Shown here one piece after another: positions 23,544-45,048 of a DNA stretch of 64,000 nt. The number at the start of each line of letters is the position of its first letter. Within the stretch, counting starts at the first letter, position 1. Source of the stretch: Flavihumibacter petaseus NBRC 106054 (GTDB lineage: Bacteria; Bacteroidota; Bacteroidia; Chitinophagales; Chitinophagaceae); the NCBI RefSeq assembly GCF_000974785.1, contig NZ_BBWV01000005.1, forward strand, positions 62,001-126,000, read 5' to 3'. A model generated the notes under the pieces. That model saw only the letters and a list, made by a program, of their open reading frames with translations. It made no database searches and was not told where the DNA came from. A program made the position numbers and the translations under genes.

Positions 23544-24211
23544 ATACGCTAAAAGCACAGATTGAAGCCGTAGCCGTGTTTGCGGATCTTCATCCCAGGG
23601 CGGCACTTCTGCTGCAGAATTTTTTCCTGGAGCTGACCACGGAAGCAGAAGAGGAGGAATTGTCCGCCTGGACACATGAGAATGTTGCCAATGAGAAACT
23701 ATTTGACCTGTTTGTGGAGCTCAACGCAGAAGGGCCGGGCGCTATAACGCCGCATTTGCTGGCGAAACTGAAAAAGAAAGCACCGCTGCCAAAGAAGCGG
23801 CGGCGCATCCGCAAGATCATCCTCTGGACATTAGGATCGATGCTCGCATTGCTTATTGCCGATTTCTTTATTCCTATTCATCCTTTGACCTGGCTGGTAA
23901 GAGGGAAGAAACCGCCGGAAGGGAACGACCAGACAGCAGTAGTATGGGCAGAAAAGGAAACAAAGATCTTCTGGCTATCCGACAGCACCCGGGTGGAACT
24001 GTATCCGAATTCAACGCTGACCTATCGGGATCCATTTTTCTGGAAACGTACGGTAGTGCTGAAAGGAAGCGCGAGATTCCACATCAGGTATGATGTCATG
24101 GGGAACCTGTTTGTAGATGCCGGGCTGGTGAAGACAGAAAGCGGCCCGGGTAACCTGCTGGTCATCACGGACAGCACAGGCAAAGTGAGTGTGTCAAAAC
24201 CTGGAAATTAA
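23540..24211 (+). CDS. FecR-like membrane protein (anti-sigma-like) without a sigma partner
   Basis: 223 aa. The N-terminal part (about 1-60) has the FecR/anti-sigma style helical domain (NFFLELTTEAEEEELSAWTHEN). A basic stretch KKRRRIRK precedes one membrane helix (about 94-112). The periplasmic part has the FecR core: IFWLSDSTRVELYPNSTLTYRDP, then RTVVLKGSARFHI. It lacks the C-terminal secretin/TonB-dependent receptor-facing domain of full FecR (about 320 aa). Normally FecR is coupled to an ECF sigma factor; here the coupled gene is AraC-type, which is unusual. Confidence 0.75.
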   Translation: MNTLKAQIEAVAVFADLHPRAALLLQNFFLELTTEAEEEELSAWTHENVANEKLFDLFVELNAEGPGAITPHLLAKLKKKAPLPKKRRRIRKIILWTLGSMLALLIADFFIPIHPLTWLVRGKKPPEGNDQTAVVWAEKETKIFWLSDSTRVELYPNSTLTYRDPFFWKRTVVLKGSARFHIRYDVMGNLFVDAGLVKTESGPGNLLVITDSTGKVSVSKPGN

Positions 24212-24239
24212 CGCATCATCCTTATTAAACCTTAGCAAT

Positions 24240-24590
24240 ATGGACAATCTTAACCTGTTGTTGCCCGGCCCCACTGGCCATGACTTCGTACCGGTATCGG
24301 CTGTACAATACATTCAGTCAAACAAAAAACAATGCCTGGTCGTCACCACTTCCGGCGAATATACCGTCTACAAAAGTATGCGCCTGATTGCAAGCCAGTT
24401 GCCGGAAGATCAGTTCGTTCGCATTCATAAGCGGTATATCGTTTCCCTCCGGCATGTCATTACCTTGGGAAAGGCTGGTTTGTTTATTTGCGGCAAAAAC
24501 CTGCCTTTATCAAGGTGGGGCCGAAGCGAGCTGAAGCGCCTTTCTATCACTTTTAGAAAGTCCCGGGATATTGTAAGTCCTGGTCAATAA
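24240..24590 (+). CDS. single-domain LytTR DNA-binding protein 1
   Basis: 117 aa consisting only of a LytTR domain, with no receiver or membrane part. The hallmark QFVRIHKRYIVSLRHV is at about 65-80, and the final strand is LFICGKNLPLSRWGRSELKRL. The ATG at 24240 is chosen because the upstream part overlaps the FecR-like gene and lacks domain similarity. LytTR domains bind pairs of short direct repeats with about 21-bp period. It is the first of four such genes within 4 kb. Confidence 0.85.
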   Translation: MDNLNLLLPGPTGHDFVPVSAVQYIQSNKKQCLVVTTSGEYTVYKSMRLIASQLPEDQFVRIHKRYIVSLRHVITLGKAGLFICGKNLPLSRWGRSELKRLSITFRKSRDIVSPGQ

Positions 24591-24598
24591 ACGAAAAG

Positions 24599-25264
24599 AT
24601 GTACAATGTAACCGTGATCTGTACAAGGCATCAACCTATCGGGTATGTTAGTGCCTTTGGCTTGTGCAAGATTCTGAATATGATCGGTCCGGAGGTAATC
24701 TTTGAAGAAAAACCTCCTTCATATTATGACGCCTATTATATCGACAAATCGTCCACGAATCTTGAGTCGGAGGCAATCCTATTATTTAAGAAAGATCACC
24801 AGGTGGAACAGGTATTGGTTGAACCGGAAGGAGTGCCGCCAAAATGGTTCTTCGACGAGATCGTAAATCTCAATAAACGTATTGAGGCTATTCCTGGCGA
24901 AATTGGAGAACGCTTTAAAGAGGTCCTTGATGCAATGAAAGATTATGCGGTATGTGGGGGATTCAAATATCTGAATAGCGATAACGCTGAATATGTTTAT
25001 GACTTGCAGGAGAAATTGATTGATGCAGGCTTGAAAGAATTGAAAGAACCGACTTATTCTGAATTATTCCAGCTTTGGAAAGACATTCATAAAAGAAGGG
25101 AAAATGAGATGTTAAAGAATATTTACGAGTATAGTAGGACACATCAGTACACCAATGCCGTTTTCCTGGTTGGTGCGGCTCACCGTAAAGCAATCAGGGA
25201 AAAGGTCTTGTGCCTTGCTGAAACTGAAACCCCTGCATTGAATTGGACGTTTTATAGCGAGTAA
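24599..25264 (+). CDS. TraB/Tiki-superfamily-like protein
   Basis: 221 aa, no signal peptide. VICTRHQPIGYVSAFGLCKILNMIGPEVIFEE resembles the N-terminal His and Glu motifs of the Tiki/TraB/EreA/ChaN superfamily, and RRENEMLKNIYEY plus NAVFLVGAAHRKAI match its later Arg/Glu and His motifs. Members are thought to be metal-dependent hydrolases, some proteolytic. It begins 8 bases after the LytTR gene, so it belongs to the AraC-FecR-LytTR unit. The assignment rests on pattern only. Confidence 0.5.
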   Translation: MYNVTVICTRHQPIGYVSAFGLCKILNMIGPEVIFEEKPPSYYDAYYIDKSSTNLESEAILLFKKDHQVEQVLVEPEGVPPKWFFDEIVNLNKRIEAIPGEIGERFKEVLDAMKDYAVCGGFKYLNSDNAEYVYDLQEKLIDAGLKELKEPTYSELFQLWKDIHKRRENEMLKNIYEYSRTHQYTNAVFLVGAAHRKAIREKVLCLAETETPALNWTFYSE

Positions 25265-25299
25265 GCTCAACCTATTGCAATAATAATAGAGATGTAGTA

Positions 25300-25336
25300 A
25301 AAAGGCTGCACCCTTGCGGGCGCAGCCTTTACTTTT
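25300..25336. terminator. bidirectional intrinsic terminator
   Basis: AAAGGCTGC pairs with GCAGCCTTT across ACCCTTGCGGGC, with A and T tracts on both sides. It lies between the converging genes ending at 25264 and 25342 and can serve both. Confidence 0.85.
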
Positions 25337-25341
25337 TGGCA

Positions 25342-25902
25342 TTAGAGGATAATCTCCAATGTCGTTTCGTTGCCGGGTACATCAGTGGCGGTGGCCCTGA
25401 TGGTAGTGCCGGGAACTGCAGCGTTGGGCAGGGTGGCGGTGTAGGTCCAGTTGATGCCATTCGGCTGTACTACGGCAAACCCGTTTTCCAGCAGGTTGCC
25501 GCCGGCAGCAAGGATCTCCACGAAAACTTTGTCCACACGGAAATCGTCTTCAGCCCTCACGACAATCTTGTCACCGGCAGCGCCGGTATACTCACGGGCC
25601 GTGATGGTTTTCACCACGGGCGGATTGACGAAATCCTGCAGCGCCCTGCTGTAGAGGTTCTGTCTGGGTTTACGCGCCTTCCTGTAGGCTTCCGCCATAA
25701 GCGGATCCTGCAGGATGTTTTTGGCATAGGTGGCGCCGGTGGTGAAGTTTTCCATGATCACTTCCTGGGCGGCTGTTGCAGGGGTGCTCCGCTGGCCGGG
25801 CGCTTTTGCAACGATTACTTTTTCTTCCCAGTCGCGGAATACCAGTTCTTTACCGATCATTCCGGAAATGGTGCCTGTTATCAGGCCTTTTGATTTTGCC
25901 AT
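25342..25902 (-). CDS. Ig-like domain protein with DUF6266-like start, paralogue of 28149-28637
   Basis: 186 aa from the ATG at 25902; the upstream extension lacks domain character. The N-terminus MAKSKGLITGTISGMIGKELVFRDWEEK recalls the DUF6266 type (G-x-sG-x-iG-x-vvf). The C-terminal 80 residues look like a small Ig-like sandwich: AGDKIVVRAEDDFRVDKV, INWTYTATLP and ATDVPGNET. The same C-terminal pattern occurs in the product at 28149. No signal peptide. Possibly a structural protein from a phage-like element; function unknown. Confidence 0.6.
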   Translation of the reverse strand: MAKSKGLITGTISGMIGKELVFRDWEEKVIVAKAPGQRSTPATAAQEVIMENFTTGATYAKNILQDPLMAEAYRKARKPRQNLYSRALQDFVNPPVVKTITAREYTGAAGDKIVVRAEDDFRVDKVFVEILAAGGNLLENGFAVVQPNGINWTYTATLPNAAVPGTTIRATATDVPGNETTLEIIL

Positions 25903-26068
25903 AAGGCATTGGATTAAAATGATAAAATGATGATGCCGTTTGGATTCTTCCCACCGGAAACAAACGGGGTCATGTTCCCGTTTGCATACATGACACCAGC
26001 CGGTCAAATCCAGACTCAAAACTAGATTTCACTTTCATTCCTTTTCCAAAAATGTAGCGAATGCTATT

Positions 26069-26104
26069 GTTATGCCATTTACACCCATCGTTATGCCGTT
26101 TACA
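26069..26104. promoter_or_regulatory. direct repeat with 21-bp period in divergent spacer
   Basis: GTTATGCCATTTACA (26069-26083) and GTTATGCCGTTTACA (26090-26104), 14 of 15 identical and exactly 21 bp apart. It lies between the divergent genes starting at 25902 and 26195, as expected for a LytTR- or AraC-type site. Confidence 0.55.
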
Positions 26105-26116
26105 GCAGCTTTCTTC

Positions 26117-26192
26117 GGGTTGCCTTCGGCTCTGGTATGGCTTTTCAAAGGGATGCTTCGTTAAATTAACGAACGAAACCCGAAGGCAACCC
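26117..26192. promoter_or_regulatory. nested inverted repeats at the start of LytTR gene 2
   Basis: GGGTTGCCTTCGG (26117-26129) is complementary to CCGAAGGCAACCC (26180-26192), whose last base is 3 bases before the ATG at 26195. Between them is the perfect 17-bp palindrome TTCGTTAAATTAACGAA (26157-26173). In RNA this would place the ribosome-binding region in a stem. Confidence 0.5.
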
Positions 26193-26194
26193 TT

Positions 26195-26545
26195 ATGAAT
26201 CACGAACGAAAAATGTATTTTGGAAAGATGAAGTATATTTTTATCTGGCAGGGAAAAACCCTTGTTCGCCTAGACCTTGAAGAGATCACTTTTGTCAGTG
26301 CTTCAGACAGCTATTCAAAAATCTTTCTCACAGGCGACCGGTATTGCCTGGTGCGTTCTACACTGACGGCTGTATTGGCAAAATTACCTACAGAGGCTTT
26401 TGTGCGTACGCATCGGACCTATGCCGTGGCGATCAATCACATCAAGACACTCGAACAGGAAGGCCTGCACATCGGCAAGAATTTTATCCCGATTTCAAAG
26501 CAGTATTACAACGCCGTTATTGCCAGACTACCCATAGTCGATTGA
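26195..26545 (+). CDS. single-domain LytTR DNA-binding protein 2
   Basis: 116 aa (or 105 aa from the ATG at 26228). LytTR domain with LDLEEITFVSASDSYSKIFL, AFVRTHRTYAVAINHI and LHIGKNFIPISKQYYNAV. No other domain. The start is uncertain: ATGs at 26195, 26213 and 26228 are in frame, and the inverted repeat ends 3 bases before the first. It is divergent from the Ig-like gene and is followed within 3 bases by the first 21-bp tandem repeat. Confidence 0.85.
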   Translation: MNHERKMYFGKMKYIFIWQGKTLVRLDLEEITFVSASDSYSKIFLTGDRYCLVRSTLTAVLAKLPTEAFVRTHRTYAVAINHIKTLEQEGLHIGKNFIPISKQYYNAVIARLPIVD

Positions 26546-26548
26546 TAC

Positions 26549-26590
26549 AAACCGGCAGTTTTGGGAGCGAAACCGGCAGTTTTGGGAGCG
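26549..26590 (+). repeat. tandem 2 x 21-bp repeat (copy pair 1)
   Basis: Two identical, adjacent 21-bp units AAACCGGCAGTTTTGGGAGC+G at 26549-26569 and 26570-26590. The core GCAGTTTTG partly fits the LytTR box pattern WMMGTTNRK, and the 21-bp period is that of LytTR direct repeats. It lies immediately downstream of LytTR gene 2 and 168 bases upstream of LytTR gene 3. Confidence 0.7.
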
Positions 26591-26657
26591 TTTTCCCTGC
26601 TATTTGCCCAGGTTTATTTTAGATGAACGGTTTTTGCCGGGGTTACCCTTGTCGAAT

Positions 26658-26743
26658 GTACCATCAGATTGTCGGATTATTCCGGACTTCAGTCACCTGG
26701 TGACATGGAGTTGCATGAATAGAATCCGTTTGCTATAGTTTGG
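26658..26743 (+). promoter_or_regulatory. conserved promoter blocks of LytTR gene 3
   Basis: GTACCA-N5-TTGTCGGATTAT (26658-26680) and TTTGCTATAGTTTGG (26729-26743) recur upstream of LytTR gene 4 at 27633-27655 and 27683-27697. The second block ends 14 bases before the ATG at 26758, exactly as at the other gene. TA-N3-TTTG resembles a -7 element with one extra spacer base. Perfect palindrome GTCACCTGGTGAC lies between the blocks. Confidence 0.55.
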
Positions 26744-26757
26744 AAAATGAAACAATT

Positions 26758-27123
26758 ATGCAAATCGATCAGATCTGGGTAAGGAAAAGAGGAAGCCTGA
26801 TACCGGTACCCGTCATGGCTATCCAGTACATCAGCGTGGTAAATCAGCACTGTATGATACATGCCGGTGAGTTTACCCTTCAAGTCCGGTACAACCTGGG
26901 AACGCTGCAGGAATGGCTTCCCAATGATGTCTTCTTTCGCGTTCACCGGAAGTACGTTGTCAACGCAAAGTTTGTCACCACCCTCCGCCGGAACAGCGTA
27001 AACATTGGTGAAATGCAGTTTCCGCTTTCCCGGGCCAATCGCCGGCGCTTGTTTGAAGTGTTGTCCCAAAACAGGATCGGCCGCAGACGAAGAAAGGCTT
27101 CAAAGCCCGGTTTGGGGGCCTGA
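26758..27123 (+). CDS. single-domain LytTR DNA-binding protein 3
   Basis: 121 aa from ATG 26758 (MQIDQIWVRKRG). The upstream ATG at 26740 is rejected because it lies inside the conserved promoter block. LytTR motifs: FFRVHRKYVVNAKFV and VNIGEMQFPLSRANRRRLFEVL. The C-terminal tail is very basic (RIGRRRRKASK), unlike the other three copies, and could strengthen DNA binding. Alone, with its own promoter. Confidence 0.85.
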   Translation: MQIDQIWVRKRGSLIPVPVMAIQYISVVNQHCMIHAGEFTLQVRYNLGTLQEWLPNDVFFRVHRKYVVNAKFVTTLRRNSVNIGEMQFPLSRANRRRLFEVLSQNRIGRRRRKASKPGLGA

Positions 27124-27128
27124 CCGCT

Positions 27129-27242
27129 TTCCGTAGAAATACGGTACCAGGTTTCAGAACTGTTGACTATTTTGGATTTCTGGATTTATTCGTTCTCTTG
27201 CAGCAAGTCAAGGTGCGCAGCGATGCGCGCCTTGATTTATTT
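27129..27242 (+). promoter_or_regulatory. palindrome and attenuator-like hairpin before the 80-aa gene
   Basis: TTCCGTAGAAATACGGTA (27129-27146) is a shorter relative of the palindromes at 20683 and 22472. Then CAAGGTGCGC/GCGCGCCTTG with loop AGCGAT (27209-27234) is a 10-bp stem with one G-T pair followed by ATTTATTT, terminator-like. It may end the LytTR 3 transcript or attenuate the 80-aa gene that starts at 27257. Confidence 0.45.
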
Positions 27243-27256
27243 AAACACGAAGCACC

Positions 27257-27499
27257 ATGCAAATTACTGCGAAAACCATCCTGGAGAAGGCGGCAGAAAT
27301 TCAGCTGGCTGATGAGATTTCAGCAATTATGCAAAGGTTTTTTAAGGAAGTGTCCACCCGTGTGGAGCAACGTCGGTTAGACGAATGGGTTGAAGAGGAT
27401 TCCGCCCATGAAGAATTCTTTCTATTGGTGGCTGCCTTCGCAAGGCATCAATCCTTTGAGGAAGCCGTAGAGGTGCTGGCGCAAACTGCCAGGCGGTAA
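27257..27499 (+). CDS. stand-alone FecR-like N-terminal (anti-sigma-type) domain
   Basis: 80 aa. IMQRFFKEVSTRVEQRRLDEWVEEDSAHEEFFLL lines up with LLQNFFLELTTEAEEEELSAWTHENVANEKLFDL of the FecR-like protein at 23540, covering only its cytoplasmic N-terminal domain. There is no membrane helix. It may be a soluble partner-binding domain or a 3'-truncated gene, but a normal stop follows and the coding is intact. It is placed between LytTR genes 3 and 4 and ends 3 bases before the second 21-bp tandem repeat. Confidence 0.6.
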   Translation: MQITAKTILEKAAEIQLADEISAIMQRFFKEVSTRVEQRRLDEWVEEDSAHEEFFLLVAAFARHQSFEEAVEVLAQTARR

Positions 27500-27502
27500 A
27501 TC

Positions 27503-27544
27503 AAACCGGCAGTTTTGGGAGCGAAACCGGCAGTTTCGGGAGCG
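27503..27544 (+). repeat. tandem 2 x 21-bp repeat (copy pair 2)
   Basis: Two adjacent 21-bp units (27503-27523 and 27524-27544), identical to those at 26549 apart from one base in the second (GTTTCGGG for GTTTTGGG). It again lies immediately after a gene and upstream of the next LytTR gene. Confidence 0.7.
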
Positions 27545-27632
27545 TTTTTCCATGATTCTCCTTTCTAAAAACAACCGTGCACTGCAAATCGGTAGTGGGT
27601 GAATGTCATTCGTTCCGTCGCAATGTCAGTTT

Positions 27633-27697
27633 GTACCACATCCTTGTCGGATGATGACTTTCGCTTGTTTGAACCAAAACGTTTTGCTACTCTTTGG
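27633..27697 (+). promoter_or_regulatory. conserved promoter blocks of LytTR gene 4
   Basis: GTACCA-N5-TTGTCGGATGAT (27633-27655) and TTTGCTACTCTTTGG (27683-27697), matching the blocks before LytTR gene 3, with the same distance from the second block to the ATG. Confidence 0.55.
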
Positions 27698-27711
27698 GAA
27701 ATCAAACAATC

Positions 27712-28056
27712 ATGAAAAGCACACACATTTGGATCAGGGGGAAAGACGAAATATTCCGTGTTCCACACAGCAGCATCCGATACATTGTTGTAGATGGCAA
27801 GTATTGCGACGTCTACGCAGAAAATGAGGCTTACCAGGTTGCCGTTAATATGCGGCAGATGATAGCAGCACTTGATGATAGCAATTTCATTCAGCTCCAC
27901 CGCAGCTATTACATCAACGTCCGGTATATTTCCGGGTTCAGCAGGGATGGCGTCATTATAGGCGACAGGTGCCTTCCCGTGGAGTATCACCTCTACCGTA
28001 AGGTGATCAAAACTACTTCGATGATCAAACTCAGGCAGATCCGTAACAATGCCTGA
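27712..28056 (+). CDS. single-domain LytTR DNA-binding protein 4
   Basis: 114 aa from ATG 27712 (MKSTHIWIRGKDEIF); an upstream GTG/TTG-type start at 27694 is inside the conserved promoter block. LytTR motifs: FIQLHRSYYINVRYISGF and VIIGDRCLPVEYHLYRKVI. It is closest in start and leader to LytTR 3 (MQIDQIWVRKRG against MKSTHIWIRGKD). A CTCCCG/CGGGAG hairpin follows in the 92-base gap before the next gene. Confidence 0.85.
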   Translation: MKSTHIWIRGKDEIFRVPHSSIRYIVVDGKYCDVYAENEAYQVAVNMRQMIAALDDSNFIQLHRSYYINVRYISGFSRDGVIIGDRCLPVEYHLYRKVIKTTSMIKLRQIRNNA

Positions 28057-36172: not shown

Positions 36173-36266
36173 TTGATTGACCCTGGTTGGATGCGATAAA
36201 TTTATAGTCCTCGCATATATCCACTCCCTTCCAAACTTTCGTGCCGTCATACTCAAATCTTCAGTT

Positions 36267-37400
36267 ATGTTTTTTACCAATGTGATCAAACCGACACACC
36301 TGTGTAACCTGGCATGCAAGTATTGTTACAATGACGATGTCCGGGATCCGGTCATGAAGGAGTACACCCTCCGCCGAACCATTGAACAGACGTTTAACTA
36401 TGTCCGGAAGTTTGAAGGGCAACGACTGGTGTCTTTCATCTGGCACGGTGGGGAACCGATGATTGCGGGACTGAAATATTTTCAGCAGGCAATTGAGTTT
36501 CAGGGTGAATTTGGGCATGACGTAAAGTTTGAGAACATTATACAGACCAATGGCACTTTCATTGACGAGAAATGGATCAATTTTTTCAAAATTGCCAATT
36601 TCAGCATCAGTATCAGTATTGATGGCCCCGCTTCGATGCACGATGCGTTCAGGGTGGACAGGAGAGGGCGGGGGTCCTACGAAAAAGTTATGAGTGCCAT
36701 CAAAATGGTAAAGGATGCAGGGTTACCATTCGGCGTATGTGTGGTTATTTCTAAAGCCAATATCGACAGGGTAGAGGAATTGTACGATTTCCTGTCGCAG
36801 GAGCGCCTGCCCTTTAATGTGATACCGCTGAATAAATCTGGAAGCGCACGCGACCATTTCCAGGATGTGGGATTGGATGCTGAGGAATATGCCGACGCCT
36901 GGATAAAAATGTATGATAAGTGGTATGATTCCGATCGCGACTATGTGTATTGCTCTGATTTTATTTATAAAACCCGGGCAATCATGATGGGCAGACCGAT
37001 GGACTGTGTCGGGTTGGCACAGTGTGCCGGATCTAATATTTCAGTTGATCCCGTCGGTGATGTGTATCCGTGTGCTTCGCTTTCCGGCCATGCCGATACC
37101 AAATATGGCAATCTTACCGAGTACGACCTGGACGTCCTGCTAAACAGTTCAACTGCCATGGATTACCGGAACAGGAAAATGGATGAACAATGTGCCTCCT
37201 GTAAATGGCAGCATGTATGCCACGGCGGCTGCCAGGCCAGGGCCTATAAGTTTTTTGGGGACCATAACCGGCGCGACTATTATTGTCCCAGCCTGTTCAA
37301 AATGTATGAACACGTCGGCCACCGTATCGAGCAAAGTGCTATCGCCTTAACAGCGGACCACTCCATTAAATCTCTGATCACCAGCAATTGTTCACAATAA
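36267..37400 (+). CDS. radical SAM/SPASM peptide maturase
   Basis: 377 aa from ATG 36267. The radical SAM cluster motif is CNLACKYC; W-HGGEP, IIQTNGTF and FSISISIDGP are the usual SAM-fold strands. The C-terminal SPASM region has its Cys ligands in CAGSNISVDPVGDVYPCAS, CASCKWQHVCHGGC and YYCPS, which bind auxiliary clusters. Such enzymes install cross-links or thioethers on ribosomal peptides, or act as sulfatase-maturing enzymes. No sulfatase is adjacent, so a peptide role is favoured. The next gene follows by 12 bases. Confidence 0.85.
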   Translation: MFFTNVIKPTHLCNLACKYCYNDDVRDPVMKEYTLRRTIEQTFNYVRKFEGQRLVSFIWHGGEPMIAGLKYFQQAIEFQGEFGHDVKFENIIQTNGTFIDEKWINFFKIANFSISISIDGPASMHDAFRVDRRGRGSYEKVMSAIKMVKDAGLPFGVCVVISKANIDRVEELYDFLSQERLPFNVIPLNKSGSARDHFQDVGLDAEEYADAWIKMYDKWYDSDRDYVYCSDFIYKTRAIMMGRPMDCVGLAQCAGSNISVDPVGDVYPCASLSGHADTKYGNLTEYDLDVLLNSSTAMDYRNRKMDEQCASCKWQHVCHGGCQARAYKFFGDHNRRDYYCPSLFKMYEHVGHRIEQSAIALTADHSIKSLITSNCSQ

Positions 37401-37412
37401 AACCATTATTGT

Positions 37413-37817
37413 ATGGATACTTCGAATTTGAAACCAGGAGATGCCGTGCAACCCTGCACTGAGGCACCGACATTACGGGTAAGGCAGGCTTCGGAATCTG
37501 CACATCCGGATTTTAAAACTGCCGAGGGCTACACTACCCGAGGCTACATTAAACACTTTTTGCCCGACCGGGAAGTAAACCTGTCTAAACTGAATCAGGC
37601 CCTTGCAGACGTATTTGGAGAGCCTGCATTAAGAATTGTTAACCTGCAGTTGCAGATTGATGAAGATTACTGGAAACAGATGTGCGGTGATCCCTGGAGT
37701 GGCAATATCTACCGGTACAATTTCCGGTCTCCGGAGATCAAAATCAATGAACTCGAGGACATACGCAATGCGATTAAATTGATCCGGCAGGAACTGGATC
37801 AGGTGAAAAAAGGCTGA
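37413..37817 (+). CDS. radical SAM partner protein (134 aa), unrecognised
   Basis: Soluble, no signal peptide. An unstructured N-terminus (LKPGDAVQPCTEAPTLRVRQ) is followed by YTTRGYIKHFLPDREVNLSKLNQALADVF and a C-terminal coiled helix DIRNAIKLIRQELDQVKKG. It could be a substrate, leader-binding or chaperone protein for the maturase, to which it is transcriptionally coupled. It is convergent with the six-gene operon, 50 bases apart. Confidence 0.55.
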   Translation: MDTSNLKPGDAVQPCTEAPTLRVRQASESAHPDFKTAEGYTTRGYIKHFLPDREVNLSKLNQALADVFGEPALRIVNLQLQIDEDYWKQMCGDPWSGNIYRYNFRSPEIKINELEDIRNAIKLIRQELDQVKKG

Positions 37818-37867: not shown

Positions 37868-38881
37868 TCAACAATAATGCAATGCCTGCAAAATACTCAT
37901 ACTTGTAAACAGGCGATGCTGATCGGCAAGTATGACACCGGTGCCTAATTCATTCTCACGCCATTCAGTAATGGCTTCCGGCTCAGTTATCATAGGAACC
38001 GGAATCCTTAGCATGGGAGTTGATGGCCAGCTTCCATCACGCATCTGAACAGCAGCCAGCCACTTTGTCCCTTTAAGAATTGTACCCGCATACCGGCTAT
38101 CCGTTGTTAAGGCAAGTGACCTGCAATAAAAAGCAGTATTGAATGCATCAGGGTGGCCACAATTATCACGCCAAAACCCTTCCTTATCCTGGTGATCAGC
38201 GATCGCTTCAAGCGTTTGCCGCAATTTTTGTCCGCCTAACCGATGCATCAGCAACAGCGCTTTAAGGGCATGGTACGTTGCATACCCCCTGCCTTTCCAC
38301 CAATACGATTCCCAGAGCCGGTCTTCACCTCTCCCGCGCAGAAGATAATCGCAGCCCTTTGCCAAAACATCCGCCTCTTCCATATGCCCATAATATAAAA
38401 TGGCCTGCAATGCCACACCAGTAACGCATGGATGTGGTTGCAACCAACCTTCCACCTGCTCAGGCCGGGCCCCGATATACCGATCGATTTGATCGGCTGA
38501 AATATAAGTGCTGAAGCCTCCGGTTTCCTGGTCTGCATGGCGTAATAGATACCGTAGACCTTTTGACAACGCAGAAGGTCGCCAGCACGGCAATGTTGCG
38601 TAACAAAGAAGTACCCATGCGGTACTATCAGCGTCTGGCGGAACATAATGATTATACCCCCAGCCTCCGGATTTTCGCTGGCAACTCAATAATCTCTTAT
38701 GGGATTCATTTATGCTGACCTGGTATTCTGATATTGCTGCCAGCCCACTAAGTGTATAGGCAGAGACCCATTCGGTAGCCGGTCCGGCCAGTGTCTCGAA
38801 ATCTGACCATAATTCATCTGCCCCTTTTTGAGCCAGGATATAATGTAGTCCCTTGCGGATAATATCTTTTCCAACAGGCAT
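37868..38881 (-). CDS. prenyltransferase/squalene-cyclase-repeat protein with DxDS motif
   Basis: 337 aa of alpha-alpha barrel repeats, half the size of a full squalene-hopene cyclase (about 630 aa). QW-like motifs occur as QRKSGGWGYN, QETGGFSTY, QDKEGFWRD and QMRDGSWPS. The class II acid motif DxDD appears as DADSTAW: the central Asp that donates the proton is present, the following Asp is Ser. It could be a class II terpene cyclase, a protein prenyltransferase-like binder or a non-catalytic scaffold. Last gene of the operon, 4 bases after the class I-like gene. Confidence 0.65.
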   Translation of the reverse strand: MPVGKDIIRKGLHYILAQKGADELWSDFETLAGPATEWVSAYTLSGLAAISEYQVSINESHKRLLSCQRKSGGWGYNHYVPPDADSTAWVLLCYATLPCWRPSALSKGLRYLLRHADQETGGFSTYISADQIDRYIGARPEQVEGWLQPHPCVTGVALQAILYYGHMEEADVLAKGCDYLLRGRGEDRLWESYWWKGRGYATYHALKALLLMHRLGGQKLRQTLEAIADHQDKEGFWRDNCGHPDAFNTAFYCRSLALTTDSRYAGTILKGTKWLAAVQMRDGSWPSTPMLRIPVPMITEPEAITEWRENELGTGVILADQHRLFTSMSILQALHYC

Positions 38882-38885
38882 ACTA

Positions 38886-39959
38886 TTAGTTGAACCAATC
38901 TTTTACATAAAATAATAACCCCTGGCGAAACCGGAAATTTTCCGCTGAATCTTTGTTTTGGGCATACAGGTCGGTAATAAAGCTATCAACACCCTTCAAT
39001 ACTTTGCGCGATTCCCTCGTAATCAGGGGCGATTCTAACAGACGCTGCAAATGAAGTCCGGGATCTGTTTTAACCCTGGCATCCACTCCTCCAAACAGGA
39101 ATAAATTGGGTTGTTCCGACTGAAAGTCTGAAATGATGTCGGCCAGGTCATCAGTACGCCAGAATATTTCACCCAGCCGCGCGGCGAAGTGTAGTTCTCT
39201 GTCGTTTGTATCGGCTTGTTCATTAACAGGAATCTGCGCAATGCTACCCATAATGAGAAAAGGCAGGACCGATTTATTGCGGATGATCACCTTCATTTTA
39301 CGATCGCTCAGACCACCAGTAACAGTTGATAATATTTCTGCCTGGTATGCCCTGTTCAATAACAGCATTATCTGCCCTGGCGAATGTTTACAGGATTCTA
39401 ATAATTCAAAGAGCAGCCGATAAAACGCTGCTATTATTTTTAACAAAACCCTGTGTTCCGGGGAAGAGATTTTACGCAGCGATGAAGCATGTTCCTGCTT
39501 TTGTAATCCGGATAACAACTCTTTGGTGATCAGCTTGCTGAAAGTTGCTTTATTGCCTGACTGATCGAGGAGGAAATCAAATAATGATATTCCCAGGTTG
39601 AATAAAGCACATAAATTTGTTACCTGTTTTTTGTAATGGCAGGCGGCGTTATAAACATCATACAAGCCATTACCAATGGTATCGCCAAATGCAAGGGCAA
39701 ATGGCAGTTTCCTTTTGAACTGTTGATTGTATTTGCCAAACAATAATTCACCGGACAAAAGTTGATAATCCTTCTTACCTAATATGGAGGGCAGCAACTC
39801 GGTTTTCAACTGGTTTCCATTTTCCAGCTGGATGCGCCGCTGATCTTTATAATCCTCAGGGCCAAGCCAAAGACCTTTGTTCTCAAAAGAAACTACCATT
39901 GCCCGCCTTGCAGACAACCAGATTTCATCAAGCATCAGGGATGTGGGCCATTCGCTCAT
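38886..39959 (-). CDS. class I terpene-synthase/polyprenyl-synthase-like protein
   Basis: 357 aa, all-helical, no signal peptide. The segment LGISLFDFLLDQSG occupies the place of the first Asp-rich motif but reads DFLLD in place of DDxxD, while RLGEIFWRTDDLADIISD keeps the second DDxxD after GExF-like context as in trans-prenyltransferases. I infer an isoprenoid diphosphate-binding fold. Its start overlaps the stop of the upstream gene by one base (TGATG) and it is 4 bases from the cyclase-repeat gene, so class I-like and class II-like proteins are made together. Confidence 0.55.
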   Translation of the reverse strand: MSEWPTSLMLDEIWLSARRAMVVSFENKGLWLGPEDYKDQRRIQLENGNQLKTELLPSILGKKDYQLLSGELLFGKYNQQFKRKLPFALAFGDTIGNGLYDVYNAACHYKKQVTNLCALFNLGISLFDFLLDQSGNKATFSKLITKELLSGLQKQEHASSLRKISSPEHRVLLKIIAAFYRLLFELLESCKHSPGQIMLLLNRAYQAEILSTVTGGLSDRKMKVIIRNKSVLPFLIMGSIAQIPVNEQADTNDRELHFAARLGEIFWRTDDLADIISDFQSEQPNLFLFGGVDARVKTDPGLHLQRLLESPLITRESRKVLKGVDSFITDLYAQNKDSAENFRFRQGLLFYVKDWFN

Positions 39960-40549
39960 CAGTCTTTTACAATAAGTGGTTTATTAATCATGGTATAGAT
40001 GATCTTATGTTCAAAATCTGTCTGAGATTTAAAAGGAAACATCCTTTCAGGAATGCGGCCTATCATCATTTTTGCATCAACTGCCCTTCCCTGGAACTTA
40101 TATTGCCCTTTATCCTGCAGCTGAGCATATAATTCGTCGGCTGATTTGATCGGGAATTTCAAATTGCCGGTTTGATGACGCAGATTCATTAATTCTGCCG
40201 GTATGTCTACTTTTTTTCGATTTGCCCTGATCAGTTCTACCAGTTTCTCAATAAGATTTTCAGCAGAAGCTACCGGGAAATAGTAGGCCGGCATATATTT
40301 TATCATTCTTACAGGATCTACCGTTACTTCAGCTATAGTATACAGTTTCCCTGACCCTCCTAATTTTTCAATCAGTTCGGCTCCGGAGTTAATGGGATAT
40401 TCCATTTCAGGAATACTTTTGAACACCTTTTCCAACTCAAGGAGGTCGGCTTCATGAACGAGGGGTATGTATTTTACTTTCGCCAGCCTGTTTACGATTT
40501 CTTCCACTTTTTTGTTTCTGCGTGGATCCAGCTTTGATTGTGTTTTCAT
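39959..40549 (-). CDS. internally repeated protein of unknown function
   Basis: 196 aa from ATG 40549 (MKTQSKLDPRRNKKVEE); the longer frame overlaps the 70-aa gene. A unit of about 50-70 residues recurs three times: an aromatic-Pro pair, then a Ser/Ala-x-x-x-L-x-x-x-L helix, then Y-x-x, VD and MI--P. Examples are MEYPINSGAELIEKL, YYFPVASAENLIEKL and LKFPIKSADELYAQL. No signal peptide. Function unknown. It begins 25 bases after the 70-aa peptide gene. Confidence 0.6.
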   Translation of the reverse strand: MKTQSKLDPRRNKKVEEIVNRLAKVKYIPLVHEADLLELEKVFKSIPEMEYPINSGAELIEKLGGSGKLYTIAEVTVDPVRMIKYMPAYYFPVASAENLIEKLVELIRANRKKVDIPAELMNLRHQTGNLKFPIKSADELYAQLQDKGQYKFQGRAVDAKMMIGRIPERMFPFKSQTDFEHKIIYTMINKPLIVKD

Positions 40550-40574
40550 TGATTGTTTTTTGAATGAAGAATAA

Positions 40575-40787
40575 TTACCAACCTCCGCCACCTTGTGGCT
40601 GCCGGTGGTCTACATACCCGGTGAGGTAACCACCATCATTTACACTGTAGCAGGGTTCATCTGAATCCACGCACCAACTTTCGATTACATATTCACACCC
40701 ATATGCATCGCACACCCATTCACCAAAAGTTTCATAATAGCAGGAAAAATTCCTGTCGTCCTGGCAATTGCCGGAGATCCATGACAT
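40575..40787 (-). CDS. 70-aa Cys-rich, Gly-tailed peptide, candidate modified-peptide precursor
   Basis: Starts MSWISGNCQDDRNFSCYYE, has six Cys and many aromatic residues (EWVCDAYGCEYVIESWC), and ends in a Gly-rich tail HRQPQGGGGW. There is no signal peptide. Size, acidic N-terminal part and short distinct C-terminus fit a ribosomal peptide precursor or a small secreted disulfide protein. It is inside the operon between the HEAT gene and the repeat-protein gene, 3.2 kb from the radical SAM gene. Whether it is a maturase substrate is inference. Confidence 0.5.
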   Translation of the reverse strand: MSWISGNCQDDRNFSCYYETFGEWVCDAYGCEYVIESWCVDSDEPCYSVNDGGYLTGYVDHRQPQGGGGW

Positions 40788-40834
40788 AACTGTAGATTTT
40801 ATGGTTAAGAAATACTATCCTGAAAAAGCCCAGG

Positions 40835-41329
40835 TCAGTGTTGCATTTTGTTGAGCAGCTCCTGCACAAGTGCATTGCGGCGGTGTGGTAATGTTTCGGG
40901 ACTTTGCCCTGCATATTGAGTGAGTACGGCTCTTGCTTTAACGGAACCGTTATTGATTAAAGACTGAACGGCCTCTGCAGCAAGCAGCGGCGAGGTTTCG
41001 CTTTTTGACAATAGTGCCTGCAGCTGATCGGTAGTGCCGTCATTTTTCTGCCGGCCTGAACTACGCATCGCACGAATAGCAATATCTTCATTCGAATCAT
41101 TGATGAGCATCCTGACCGTTTCCATTGCCTGCGGATGTGTCATCCACCCCAATAAGGCAACGGCATTTGTGCGGATTTTCTGGCGAAGTCCCGGATAGGT
41201 TCCGAGTGCAGCTTCACACAAAACAGTTACTGCTTCATTTCCCCATCCCTCAATGGTCAGCGCGAGGGTTGGAGGTACTTCAATGGCCGATAAGGCCTTG
41301 ATTACTTTGATTTCTATTTCAGTAGGCAT
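40835..41329 (-). CDS. HEAT-repeat protein
   Basis: 164 aa of repeating helix pairs of about 30 residues: RTNAVALLGWMTHPQAMETV, AIRAMRSSGRQKNDGTTDQL, LAAEAVQSLINNGSVKARAV. No catalytic motif and no signal peptide. HEAT proteins bind partners, here probably products of the same operon. Starts 5 bases after the 1237-aa gene. Confidence 0.7.
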   Translation of the reverse strand: MPTEIEIKVIKALSAIEVPPTLALTIEGWGNEAVTVLCEAALGTYPGLRQKIRTNAVALLGWMTHPQAMETVRMLINDSNEDIAIRAMRSSGRQKNDGTTDQLQALLSKSETSPLLAAEAVQSLINNGSVKARAVLTQYAGQSPETLPHRRNALVQELLNKMQH

Positions 41330-41334
41330 GGCTT

Positions 41335-44300
41335 CTAATTTTGGGTATCAGCAGTGAGACATTGAGGCGCGGTGTTCATCCCCTGGAATAATGACGTTGC
41401 CGGCAATGATGCGGTTTTCCCGTCTTCAAAATGAGTTGCACCCAGTCTGGCGGGATCCACCTGTCCGGGATCGATGGCCATCCCGTTGGAAGTGTCCCAA
41501 TAGGGATACATCAGGAAGGCATCATCACCATCATCGCATAACCGGTTAAAGAATGTACCTGGTCCTTCGCTACCACCATCGCAGATATGGCGCAGGCAGA
41601 GTGAATGGCCCACTTCATGGGCGACAACCTGTTGAAAGTCGACTGGACTCAAAGGTCCGCCTTCATCACCAATAAAGAGGGGTCCGCCACCGAAATAGGC
41701 ATAGGCAGTGGCAATTTCCACGTCGCGGACGAAGAAGAAATTGAGCGCACCGTTAACACCCGGCGCAGTAGATAATATCCCGGTATCAGTTGGATTATCC
41801 AGCAGCGGCCAGATATTAGCGTTGGTATCGGATACATTGATCGTGGTCACAGCCTGAACCAGCCTGAATGAGATCCTTGCCTGTGACCAGGGAATCGTAA
41901 TGGAGAAGGCAGGCCCCTCCGCAAAGAGGTTAGTAATTTCTGCCACGGTGCGTGTGGTACCAATACCAGGTGATGTGCCCTTTACAATAAAGGCTGCACA
42001 ACGAACTACAATGGTATCACTGATACGCGCAACTTTTTCACCACGACTAACACCGCCATCAGGGTTTCTGACTACAATGCGTCGCACGCCGCGCAGTGAT
42101 CCAAGGAAACCACCAGGAACCTGGAGATTAATCGCCGTGCGGGTTACACCCGTCACCGGAAGCGAATAGCTGGCCGCCGGGCTAACCGACCGGTCTTCTG
42201 CCAACACTTGCAATCCGGGTTTAAAGGCCAGCCCGTTAAGGGTTACTGCCTGGTTTTCCACCCATCGGGTTCCGGCAGCAATGTCATCCAGTTTGGGAAG
42301 TACCCGCAGCATAACACGGTTACTCCTTCTGTCTGATAGCCCGGGTTCCCGAACGATAATAGGATGGTAACCACCATCGGCATCCAGCGGTACTGTAAAT
42401 GATGCTGCGGTTGCTGATGTAACCGGACCAACATTTACGCCATCAAAATATACCCGATCAATTGCCGGATCAAAGTTTTGGCCGGTGATCTGAACTGTTT
42501 CCCCAGGTTCGGCTTCAGCCACCTGGATGCTGAGAATATGGGGTTTATTGAATTCCTGGTTCCATTGTTCTTCAGTGATCGGTAAAACCTGGAAGGCATC
42601 TTCCACGGGCATTGGCCCGTTATCACCTGGTAAACCTTGCAATGCAGGTGCGCCGGTTGCGCCGTCGCTTCCTCTTCTTTCAGGATGGTCATCGCACCAG
42701 GTTTCGCAGTCCGCAGTTCCTGCAGGGCCACCAGTTCCACCTTCACCGGGATCGCCTGCAGGGCCGCCATCACCACCATTACCACCGTTTATGTCGATAG
42801 TGGGTGGTACAGCCGCTAAAATGGCTATGCTTGCCGGACTGGTGAGAAGCGTAATCAGGCCGCCTCTGCCACCATTTCCGCCTTTGCCACCCCTACCGGC
42901 ATCACCACCCTGGCCGCCATTTCCGCCGGTTCCAACACCACGGCAGCAGCCACCAAAGAATGTGCCATCGGCTCTTAATCCTTCTGCACCATTGCCCCCA
43001 CGGCCGCCGTTCTGTCCACGGCCCCCGGTTCCTCCCTGCTGACCTTTGAGATCAATCGGGGGAAGATTATTGGTAGCATCAAGAATATACATGGTTATCG
43101 TTGGAGCGGGCGTAACCGCATCAGCACCGCCATTGTAGGATGGGTGTGGATTTGGATCACCATCTGCACCATCTTGTCCGGGAACCCCTGCACCATTGCC
43201 GTTACTACCTGCGGGTGCAGGGTTTGGCCAGTAACTATTGGCGGAAGGCAATACAGGCATTTCCCAGGTAATCCGTGAAGCGGAGTCGTGTAGAACAGAT
43301 CGCGCAATTACGACCAGCTCACGAACTTCTTTGGCGATCACCACCGATTGGCCACGGATATCCCATTCACCCGCCAGGACAACCGCGGTTTCATGCAGCA
43401 AATCATTGGGCTGGTAATACAAGATTGAATTGGAAATCAATTCCCTGAATGCATAATGCAGAAGCGGTGGCACATAGGCAGGCGGTTGCACTACCGGTGC
43501 TGCATATACGCCTGTTTTGAATTTCTGCAATGGGTTCATCCGGAAGCGGCCGAGATCATTAATACTACAAACACCGGCTTCGCGCATAAAAGTTTGGGCC
43601 CTGTCCAACCACATCTGGATATTTTCCGGTTCCATGATAGCATCAGGCACCGTATAACCAAGGCCGGGATTTTGTTCAGCAACACCACGACAGATGCTTT
43701 CAATCATTTCTTTAGTAGTAAGCAGTTTCGGAACAAATCCTGGCACCAGCCTGTTTTTTGGCATTTTTGTGAAGACCTTTGCCACAGACGATTTACCTGA
43801 AATGTTTTTCAGAGAGATCCGAAATGCTTTGCCGGCAGCGATATCTTCTGAATCAGCCTGCCAGTGAACAATTGTGGAGCCTGTAAAACTTCTTTGTTCG
43901 ATTCCCTGTGGCGTTTCAATAATGACTTCCCCTTTTTGTCCGTGGCCCAGATCAATATGTGTTTCACCTTCGCCTGCAGTCCGCGGGATCCAGCTTTTTC
44001 TTGTTTCCGAACCATCTTTCATGCGAAACTGAGTCTGTTGGTCTGCGCTGGAAGTATGGGCGCCCAGCAGGTTTTTTGCTTCGCGGATAGCGATGCCGAA
44101 TATCTTGCTGTTGGTGGGAGTGAGGTTTTTATCAGAGAGTTTCTGGGATCGGTGCATCAGGTCTTCAGGTTCTACAGAAGCCAGTTCAGCAAGAGAGTGA
44201 ATGCCTAATTCAGGCAATATCCGGGTAAAGCCTTCAAGTTCAAGCGGCAATCCGTGGAATCGTGGGTCGGGCGGGTTGGGAATTGGGCTTTTTACTACCT

Positions 44301-45048
44301 GCCAATCTATCCTATGGGGATTGAGGTGGATATTCAAGCCACCTTCATCACTATCATAACAATTGTAATTATCATCAATGCCAAAATCCCAGTGAAATCT
44401 TCCTGGCAGAAAATCTTTTATTTCAACGAGTTCATCCTTAACAGGAACAGTCTTGTCAAAGACAAGTTTGCCATTGATACGATCTTTTGCTCTAAGGCGG
44501 ATTTCATTCCCGCTAAAACCTTTAAGCTGGAACCGTACAGTAGTAGGCATCTGGGGTTTGATCCCGTCGAGTACAAGCGTATTCCTGCTAACATTGCCGG
44601 CACGTACTGTTATTTGTTTATTGCCCGATCCGTTTATTGAATCAGTTGCTTTCAGCAAATAGTCACCCGGTGATATGCCACCGGCCCTGAACCGACGGCT
44701 TACAGGATCCAGTGCGATTTGAATATTTCCTCCGGTAGACTCCAGCAATACCGTGCCGTTCTTGACCTGCTCACCTTCATTGTTTTCAAGTTTAACATCA
44801 ATAGCGCCGAGGTTTTTATCTGAAAACAGACCAGGAAGGTCTTTCAGGGTTTTTTTCAGTTCTTTGATTTTTTCTGCACTGGCTTCCCTGGAAGGGAGAA
44901 TGATGTTCATTGGTGTGCTTCCGGGGTTTGCAATAGTGATTTCACTCCAGTGTTCAGATGCACGATGAATACTTGTGCGGATTGCAGATGCGGGGATCTC
45001 TAACGGTCTGATTGACTTGTTACCCCGAAGCGTAGGTTTTTTTGCCAT
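41335..45048 (-). CDS. 1237-aa protein with Gly-rich region, IPT/TIG domains and a zincin metallopeptidase domain
   Basis: Large multidomain protein, first gene of the operon, without a recognisable signal peptide. Order: beta-rich N-terminus (1-270); helical segment with LPELGIHSLAELASVEPEDL, helix-hairpin-helix-like (about 275-335); mixed region (340-615); collagen-like Gly-rich stretch (about 615-810: GGTGGRGQNGGRGGNGAEG and similar); one or two IPT/TIG Ig-like domains (about 840-1020); C-terminal zinc peptidase domain with HEVGHSLCLRH (HExxHxxxxxH) and a later MYPY that may be the Met-turn. Comparable to M12/M43-type zincins. Substrate unknown; it may cleave a product of this locus. Confidence 0.7.
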   Translation of the reverse strand: MAKKPTLRGNKSIRPLEIPASAIRTSIHRASEHWSEITIANPGSTPMNIILPSREASAEKIKELKKTLKDLPGLFSDKNLGAIDVKLENNEGEQVKNGTVLLESTGGNIQIALDPVSRRFRAGGISPGDYLLKATDSINGSGNKQITVRAGNVSRNTLVLDGIKPQMPTTVRFQLKGFSGNEIRLRAKDRINGKLVFDKTVPVKDELVEIKDFLPGRFHWDFGIDDNYNCYDSDEGGLNIHLNPHRIDWQVVKSPIPNPPDPRFHGLPLELEGFTRILPELGIHSLAELASVEPEDLMHRSQKLSDKNLTPTNSKIFGIAIREAKNLLGAHTSSADQQTQFRMKDGSETRKSWIPRTAGEGETHIDLGHGQKGEVIIETPQGIEQRSFTGSTIVHWQADSEDIAAGKAFRISLKNISGKSSVAKVFTKMPKNRLVPGFVPKLLTTKEMIESICRGVAEQNPGLGYTVPDAIMEPENIQMWLDRAQTFMREAGVCSINDLGRFRMNPLQKFKTGVYAAPVVQPPAYVPPLLHYAFRELISNSILYYQPNDLLHETAVVLAGEWDIRGQSVVIAKEVRELVVIARSVLHDSASRITWEMPVLPSANSYWPNPAPAGSNGNGAGVPGQDGADGDPNPHPSYNGGADAVTPAPTITMYILDATNNLPPIDLKGQQGGTGGRGQNGGRGGNGAEGLRADGTFFGGCCRGVGTGGNGGQGGDAGRGGKGGNGGRGGLITLLTSPASIAILAAVPPTIDINGGNGGDGGPAGDPGEGGTGGPAGTADCETWCDDHPERRGSDGATGAPALQGLPGDNGPMPVEDAFQVLPITEEQWNQEFNKPHILSIQVAEAEPGETVQITGQNFDPAIDRVYFDGVNVGPVTSATAASFTVPLDADGGYHPIIVREPGLSDRRSNRVMLRVLPKLDDIAAGTRWVENQAVTLNGLAFKPGLQVLAEDRSVSPAASYSLPVTGVTRTAINLQVPGGFLGSLRGVRRIVVRNPDGGVSRGEKVARISDTIVVRCAAFIVKGTSPGIGTTRTVAEITNLFAEGPAFSITIPWSQARISFRLVQAVTTINVSDTNANIWPLLDNPTDTGILSTAPGVNGALNFFFVRDVEIATAYAYFGGGPLFIGDEGGPLSPVDFQQVVAHEVGHSLCLRHICDGGSEGPGTFFNRLCDDGDDAFLMYPYWDTSNGMAIDPGQVDPARLGATHFEDGKTASLPATSLFQGMNTAPQCLTADTQN

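Follow-up and report, generated by a model that had tools for sequence, protein, structure and literature searches.

Which genes of a short bacterial gene run that joins two predicted terpene enzymes to a small Cys-rich peptide belong together, and what would they make? The run lies on the minus strand of a 64,000-nucleotide stretch of the Flavihumibacter petaseus NBRC 106054 genome (contig NZ_BBWV01000005.1, positions 62,001 to 126,000), which is called the window here.

Gene layout and the recurring unit

The minus strand carries six ORFs, designated A to F in the order of transcription from 45048 to 37868 (Table 1), and separated by gaps of 5, 47, 25, −1, and 4 bases. The layout and the gaps agree with those given in an earlier note on this DNA. 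Gene D can start at GTG 40591 or ATG 40549 and ends at 39959; the ATG is best read as the start, as it yields the 196-residue product and the 25-base gap. We infer co-transcription of the six genes from their spacing only, and the count of promoter- and terminator-like sites across them is no higher than in shuffled sequence. The giant protein A matches Pfam TIG (4e-5), with metzincin matches below the cut-off. Its zinc motif HEVGHSLCLRH has the form HExxHxxxxxH and aligns weakly (E-value 0.07) to HEVGHWLDLRH of mirolysin. Protein B matches Pfam HEAT_2 (PF13646, 7.5e-14). None of the six proteins matched PADLOC at an E-value of 0.01 or lower, and a defence system was rejected on this ground.

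Table 1. Genes of the minus-strand run, in window coordinates.
Gene	Position	Strand	Length	Features	Proposed role or status
A	41335..45048	-	1237 aa	Gly-rich, IPT/TIG, metzincin-like	neighbour; membership of recurring unit without support
B	40835..41329	-	164 aa	HEAT-repeat protein	neighbour; membership of recurring unit without support
C	40575..40787	-	70 aa	Cys/Trp-rich, GGGGW at C-terminus	putative substrate peptide for E/F
D	39959..40549	-	196 aa from ATG	MTH865-like repeats	proposed peptide-binding helper
E	38886..39959	-	357 aa	predicted class I isoprenoid-fold protein; D128xxxD132 and D270DxxD274xxxD278	proposed prenyltransferase
F	37868..38881	-	337 aa	predicted monodomain class II terpene cyclase, MstE-like; motif D83-A-D85-S-T	proposed cyclase

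The search for protein E returned its own genome only among 59 relatives, and its own genome plus one weak match (genome G263) among 395 genomes of the phylum. A pattern scan of 84,980 species genomes, built on the alignment of E from the window and from G263, added six further loci; the scan used two short peptide patterns and under-counts relatives. There are thus eight E loci, including the window, and F was matched beside E in seven of them. The exception is G263 (L002, L003), where the E-like gene (25%, E-value 2e-4) adjoins a 300-residue gene that has neither a Pfam match nor an F match at an E-value of 0.01, and the locus was counted as E without F.

The order C-D-E-F is identical in the window and in Pontibacter sp. 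172403-2 (L004), the one locus among the seven others that has all four genes. Five loci (L005–L009), from Acidobacteria gp4, Muriicola, Ferruginibacter, a Chitinophagales MAG, and Lutibacter, have the order F-E, with no match to C or D at an E-value of 0.01 among ORFs of at least 50 residues in about 20 kb per locus. By alignment, D was found in one of the 395 genomes (its own) and in one of 150 genomes of the Pontibacter family (that of Pontibacter itself), and is as rare as E. Neither the viral contigs (alignment) nor the plasmids (protein search) contained D, and no E was found in plasmids. Eight plasmid records contain F matches of 23–27% identity, and no annotated product in the two of them that were examined is E-like.

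A and B have no match in L003–L009 at an E-value of 0.01. A is present in one of 79 relatives, namely its own genome, and was absent from the plasmid records and viral contigs searched; a whole-genome search without a positive control found it in none of the six other genomes with E and F, including Pontibacter. The recurring unit is C, D, E, and F, with A and B as neighbours outside it. Of the six-gene operon proposed in the earlier note, the part that stands is C-D-E-F, recurring in order in Pontibacter, and A and B, without a match there, fall away; the genome mining that it had proposed found four of the genes in a second genome and the whole six in none of the other E loci. We also rejected, from the distribution of A, a six-gene pathway with this protease as the maturation enzyme. 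A could still process C in the window strain only.

The surroundings of the E loci differ. In Pontibacter, two genes without Pfam matches (L004:12221-13297; 226 and 125 residues) follow F on the same strand, and the window has nothing comparable downstream of F. In L006–L009, a gene for a protein of about 120 residues and a TPR nucleotide-cyclase gene lie on the minus strand before F, divergent from the F-E pair. They occur in four of the five F-E loci (not in Acidobacteria), and their Pfam check covers L008. Four Trp residues of the 120-residue protein are kept in all four sequences. As the E/F pair also occurs beside other neighbours, in members of the Flavobacteriaceae and the Chitinophagales and in a single MAG of the Acidobacteria, its acceptors could vary.

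Predicted terpene enzymes E and F

Protein F matches Pfam SQHop_cyclase_C (5e-11) and is predicted to form a single α-barrel domain. The model aligns over its full length with the structures of MstE (6sbb-6sbg) at TMq 0.85–0.87, with 26% sequence identity, in line with the cyclase-repeat protein recognized in the earlier note. D85 of the D-A-D-S-T motif aligns with MstE D109, the central Asp of its DxD motif (the numbering shift was fixed on the Y157F chain), and Y135 occupies the position of MstE Tyr157. The pattern DxDS[TS] is present in 12 of 12 rows; F has it, and so have two complete fused cyclase domains and a partial one. MstE R337, which we take to have a role with the benzoate head group, falls within an insertion relative to the F profile. 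F has no residue corresponding to it, and this argues against benzoate as the acceptor. We call F MstE-like in its predicted fold and putative acid, not in its acceptor; the likeness comprises the whole fold, the catalytic Asp, and the Tyr157 position, whereas the low identity, R337, and the partner genes set the two proteins apart. An assignment of F to eukaryote-type protein prenyltransferases was rejected, as such chains appear from rank 33 onwards with TMq 0.53–0.59, as opposed to 0.85–0.87 for MstE.

Protein E has no Pfam match. Its predicted structure, a model of middling confidence, is all-helical and has the class I isoprenoid fold, as the earlier note had supposed. Residues D128, D132, D270, D271, D274, and D278 are invariant in seven of seven sequences, with DxxxD rather than DDxxD as the first motif. 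The same DxxxD and DDxxDxxxD pattern is invariant in the prenyltransferase domains (n = 3) that are fused to MstE-like cyclases in other genomes of the phylum. These fusions came from the F profile, which matched 10 of the 395 phylum genomes (E-value ≤ 1e-10). Four genomes besides that of the window were examined in detail, and the five others have partial matches in frames of 645–744 residues. In three of the four (L026, L027, L028), a class I-like and an MstE-like domain are fused, with a stop interrupting the fusion in one case, and the fourth has a lone cyclase (L025). For the second match in genome G112 (L029), the examination was by HMM. The architecture of L026–L028 suggests that they are relatives of ChrPC, a known fusion of a prenyltransferase and an MstE-like cyclase.

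The review PMC13290415 describes a common Gln just before the second motif of trans-IDS-like Trp prenyltransferases. Three residues before the first Asp of this motif, E has Trp in seven of seven sequences (W267 in the window), whereas the three fused domains have Gln in two cases and Cys in one; in our own reading, this is the Gln site meant in the review. The Trp in place of Gln argues against E as a Trp prenyltransferase. A comparison of the E profile with the fused prenyltransferase domains by hhalign gave a non-significant match (probability 1.6%, E-value 0.032) with the second motif in register, and the E HMM matched no ORF in L025–L029 at an E-value of 1 or lower; both results count against the pathway proposed below. 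We say that E may work like the trans-IDS-like Trp prenyltransferases (ComQ, PalQ, the ChrPC prenyltransferase domain), without filing it as a member of the family.

Two of the fusion loci (L027:6982-11460 and L028:4108-10410) contain ORFs of 47 and 55 residues with a common VEELExRLEMA stretch. Each locus also has a gene that matches M50 below the threshold; the one in L027 further matches the daptide and LiaK protease models, again below the cut-off. L028 further contains a radical SAM gene and, by sequence impression, a P450-like gene. The lone MstE-like cyclase gene (L025:4089-8532) adjoins what look like ABC/ECF-type transporter genes, and no E match was found in the fetched stretch of this locus.

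Peptide C and protein D

Peptide C has a 58-residue homologue in Pontibacter, with the first 18 residues identical and GGW at the C-terminus of both. The alignment contains 40 identical residues among 57, and codon changes fall on the third position 32 times, versus 15 and 13 at the other two. Since 22 of the 40 identical residues are encoded by different codons, C reads as a real, conserved gene under selection, and the Cys-rich small gene singled out in the earlier note holds up. The two copies diverge in the middle of the peptide, where the alignment has a gap of 12 residues and the window copy has two more Cys (six in all, versus four in Pontibacter). A short gene beside modifying enzymes, with kept ends and a variable middle (n = 2), has features of a RiPP precursor; C is known from these two sequences only. 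It has no Pfam match and, by sequence impression, no evident signal peptide. Trp-ended ORFs make up 49 of 2093 ORFs of 18–130 residues in L003–L009, and none of those surveyed near the E/F pairs of L005–L009 recurs. No leader motif recurs with C, and neither a protease nor an exporter was recognized beside it in the Pontibacter locus (sequence impression, with Pfam for two genes), which counts against the pathway proposed below.

Protein D matches Pfam MTH865 (PF07747, 8e-9), with two stretches passing the threshold. A PF07747 search of 395 genomes gave no matches but missed D of the window itself, and is uninformative for Bacteroidota-like genomes; three of 14 control genomes were positive, all of them archaea. 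The structure of an archaeal MTH865 protein is known, and the paper on it calls its function unknown. D shares this domain, and differs in having it repeated within one protein that is tied to a terpene cassette. Identity between the window and Pontibacter is 64% for D, 57% for C, 43% for F, and 35% for E. The set keeps C and D better than E and F, which supports the pathway proposed below, and the conservation of D suggests that it may be in direct contact with C. Should D have a part in that pathway, this archaeal domain would gain a testable role.

Proposed pathway and its alternatives

We hypothesize, at roughly even odds (about 0.5), that E prenylates C and F cyclizes the attached chain, with the last Trp as the favourite site and D presenting the peptide. 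C would be a ribosomal precursor peptide, and E, as a class I-fold prenyltransferase, would put a polyprenyl chain on one of its Trp residues, most likely that of the shared GGW end. F would then protonate the far end of the chain, with D85 as the acid, and fold it into rings, while D would bind or present C. In this scheme, we infer C as the substrate, the Trp site, the chain length, the order of the steps, and the role of D.

Similar chemistry is known. As set out in passages of the review PMC13290415, NctPC and ChrPC (the latter from the work of Hubrich 2024, as described there) are prenyltransferases fused to MstE-like cyclases, which prenylate Trp of a ribosomal peptide and cyclize the chain, with C20 donors for NctPC and C10–C20 donors for ChrPC; these are the two examples of enzymatically cyclized terpenes on peptides named there. 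PalQ prenylates a terminal Trp and favours GW or GGW ends (PMC13290415), and the PalQ/PalX system of Paenibacillus is described in PMC10853753 as a three-gene cluster without a cyclase. The earlier note knew of no described pathway that combines such proteins, which is too strong, as ChrPC joins a class I-fold prenyltransferase to an MstE-like cyclase in a fusion acting on a ribosomal Trp peptide; the prenylated or cyclized peptide that it suggested gains a precedent in ChrPC and NctPC. A split prenyltransferase/cyclase set, peptide C, or an MTH865 protein with a terpene set did not appear in the literature search listings.

The resemblance to ChrPC comprises a class I-fold partner, an MstE-like cyclase, and a peptide gene nearby, and the aspartate spacing of E and F is that of the ChrPC-like fusions. 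However, E and F are not fused: in the window 4 bases lie between the two ORFs, and they are separate in Pontibacter as well. No RiPP-type protease lies beside C, which also lacks the VEELE-type stretch of L027 and L028, and protein D is extra. The comparison of E was made with the putative relatives of ChrPC. The PalQ/PalX system has in common with the window the class I isoprenoid superfamily and a conserved C-terminal Trp in the peptide, which for C is the proposed substrate, and its GW/GGW preference would fit the end of C, but PalX has an NHLP leader, whereas C matched no such family. The chemistry appears to be of a known kind, as Trp-peptide prenylation and MstE-like cyclization, and the gene set a rare version of it that lends itself to experiment; what appears new is the split genes, the unfamiliar peptide, and the putative MTH865 helper.

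The GGW end of C in both genomes, together with the preference of PalQ, speaks for Trp prenylation, and the full-length match of F to MstE with its DxDS[TS] motif speaks for cyclization. The five E/F loci without C or D matches argue against C as the substrate, and would suit a small terpenoid or meroterpenoid made by E and F, perhaps with free Trp or a different aromatic compound as the acceptor, and with C and D serving to bind it, store it, or respond to it. For MstE, the nearest solved relative of F, the structure entry titles give a small aromatic acid with a prenyl chain as the substrate, and in four of the five loci the 120-residue protein and TPR-cyclase genes stand beside E/F instead. 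However, the lack of an R337 counterpart in F, the kept GGW end, and the conservation of C and D, which are easier to explain if the enzymes handle them directly, weigh against this chief alternative, which is possible but rather unlikely.

It is also conceivable, though improbable, that E and F do not make a secreted product but attach a terpene to a folded protein as an anchor: C in loci of the window type, and perhaps the 120-residue protein in L006–L009. The kept Trp residues of the latter, the lack of an evident signal peptide in C, and the lack of a recurring exporter or protease would fit an anchor, but any action of E/F on the 120-residue protein would be conjectural, and its gene is transcribed away from the pair together with the nucleotide-cyclase gene. 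A chance array of six same-strand genes with no pathway in common is very improbable: A and B do not recur and each gene is sporadic, but the order of four genes is kept in Pontibacter, and F accompanies E in all loci except G263.

If E and F do modify C, the locus might represent a new class of ribosomal terpenopeptides in which a GGW peptide with four to six Cys carries a cyclized polyprenyl on its last Trp, made by a split E/F pair from an unrecognized prenyltransferase branch with an MTH865-repeat carrier; we regard this extended proposal as doubtful. Were the terpenopeptide reading true, the MTH865 domain would gain its first function. The split version would allow prenylation and cyclization to be tested apart and recombined, with the GGW end as a convenient substrate.

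A separate neighbour lies at 36177-37817 (+), where a radical SAM/SPASM gene, whose NCBIfam DynA score of 616 bits exceeds the cut-off of 450, is followed by a 134-residue ORF with WSGNIYRYNF, which we take to resemble the dynobactin core. The ORF reached only an E-value of 0.05 to NF041295, below the cut-off, and a search of 58 other relatives gave no match to it; the region possibly encodes a dynobactin-type peptide in an unusual host. A link of C-F to the DynA-like gene, which is convergent to them, was rejected, as no such gene is among the ORFs around C-F in Pontibacter. A tRNA-Pro attachment site for an island was likewise rejected, as no repeat of at least 12 bases of the tRNA stretch occurs elsewhere in the window. 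At 24189-28056 (+), four small ORFs (116–133 residues) look, by sequence impression, like lone LytTR DNA-binding domains and are interleaved with small genes.
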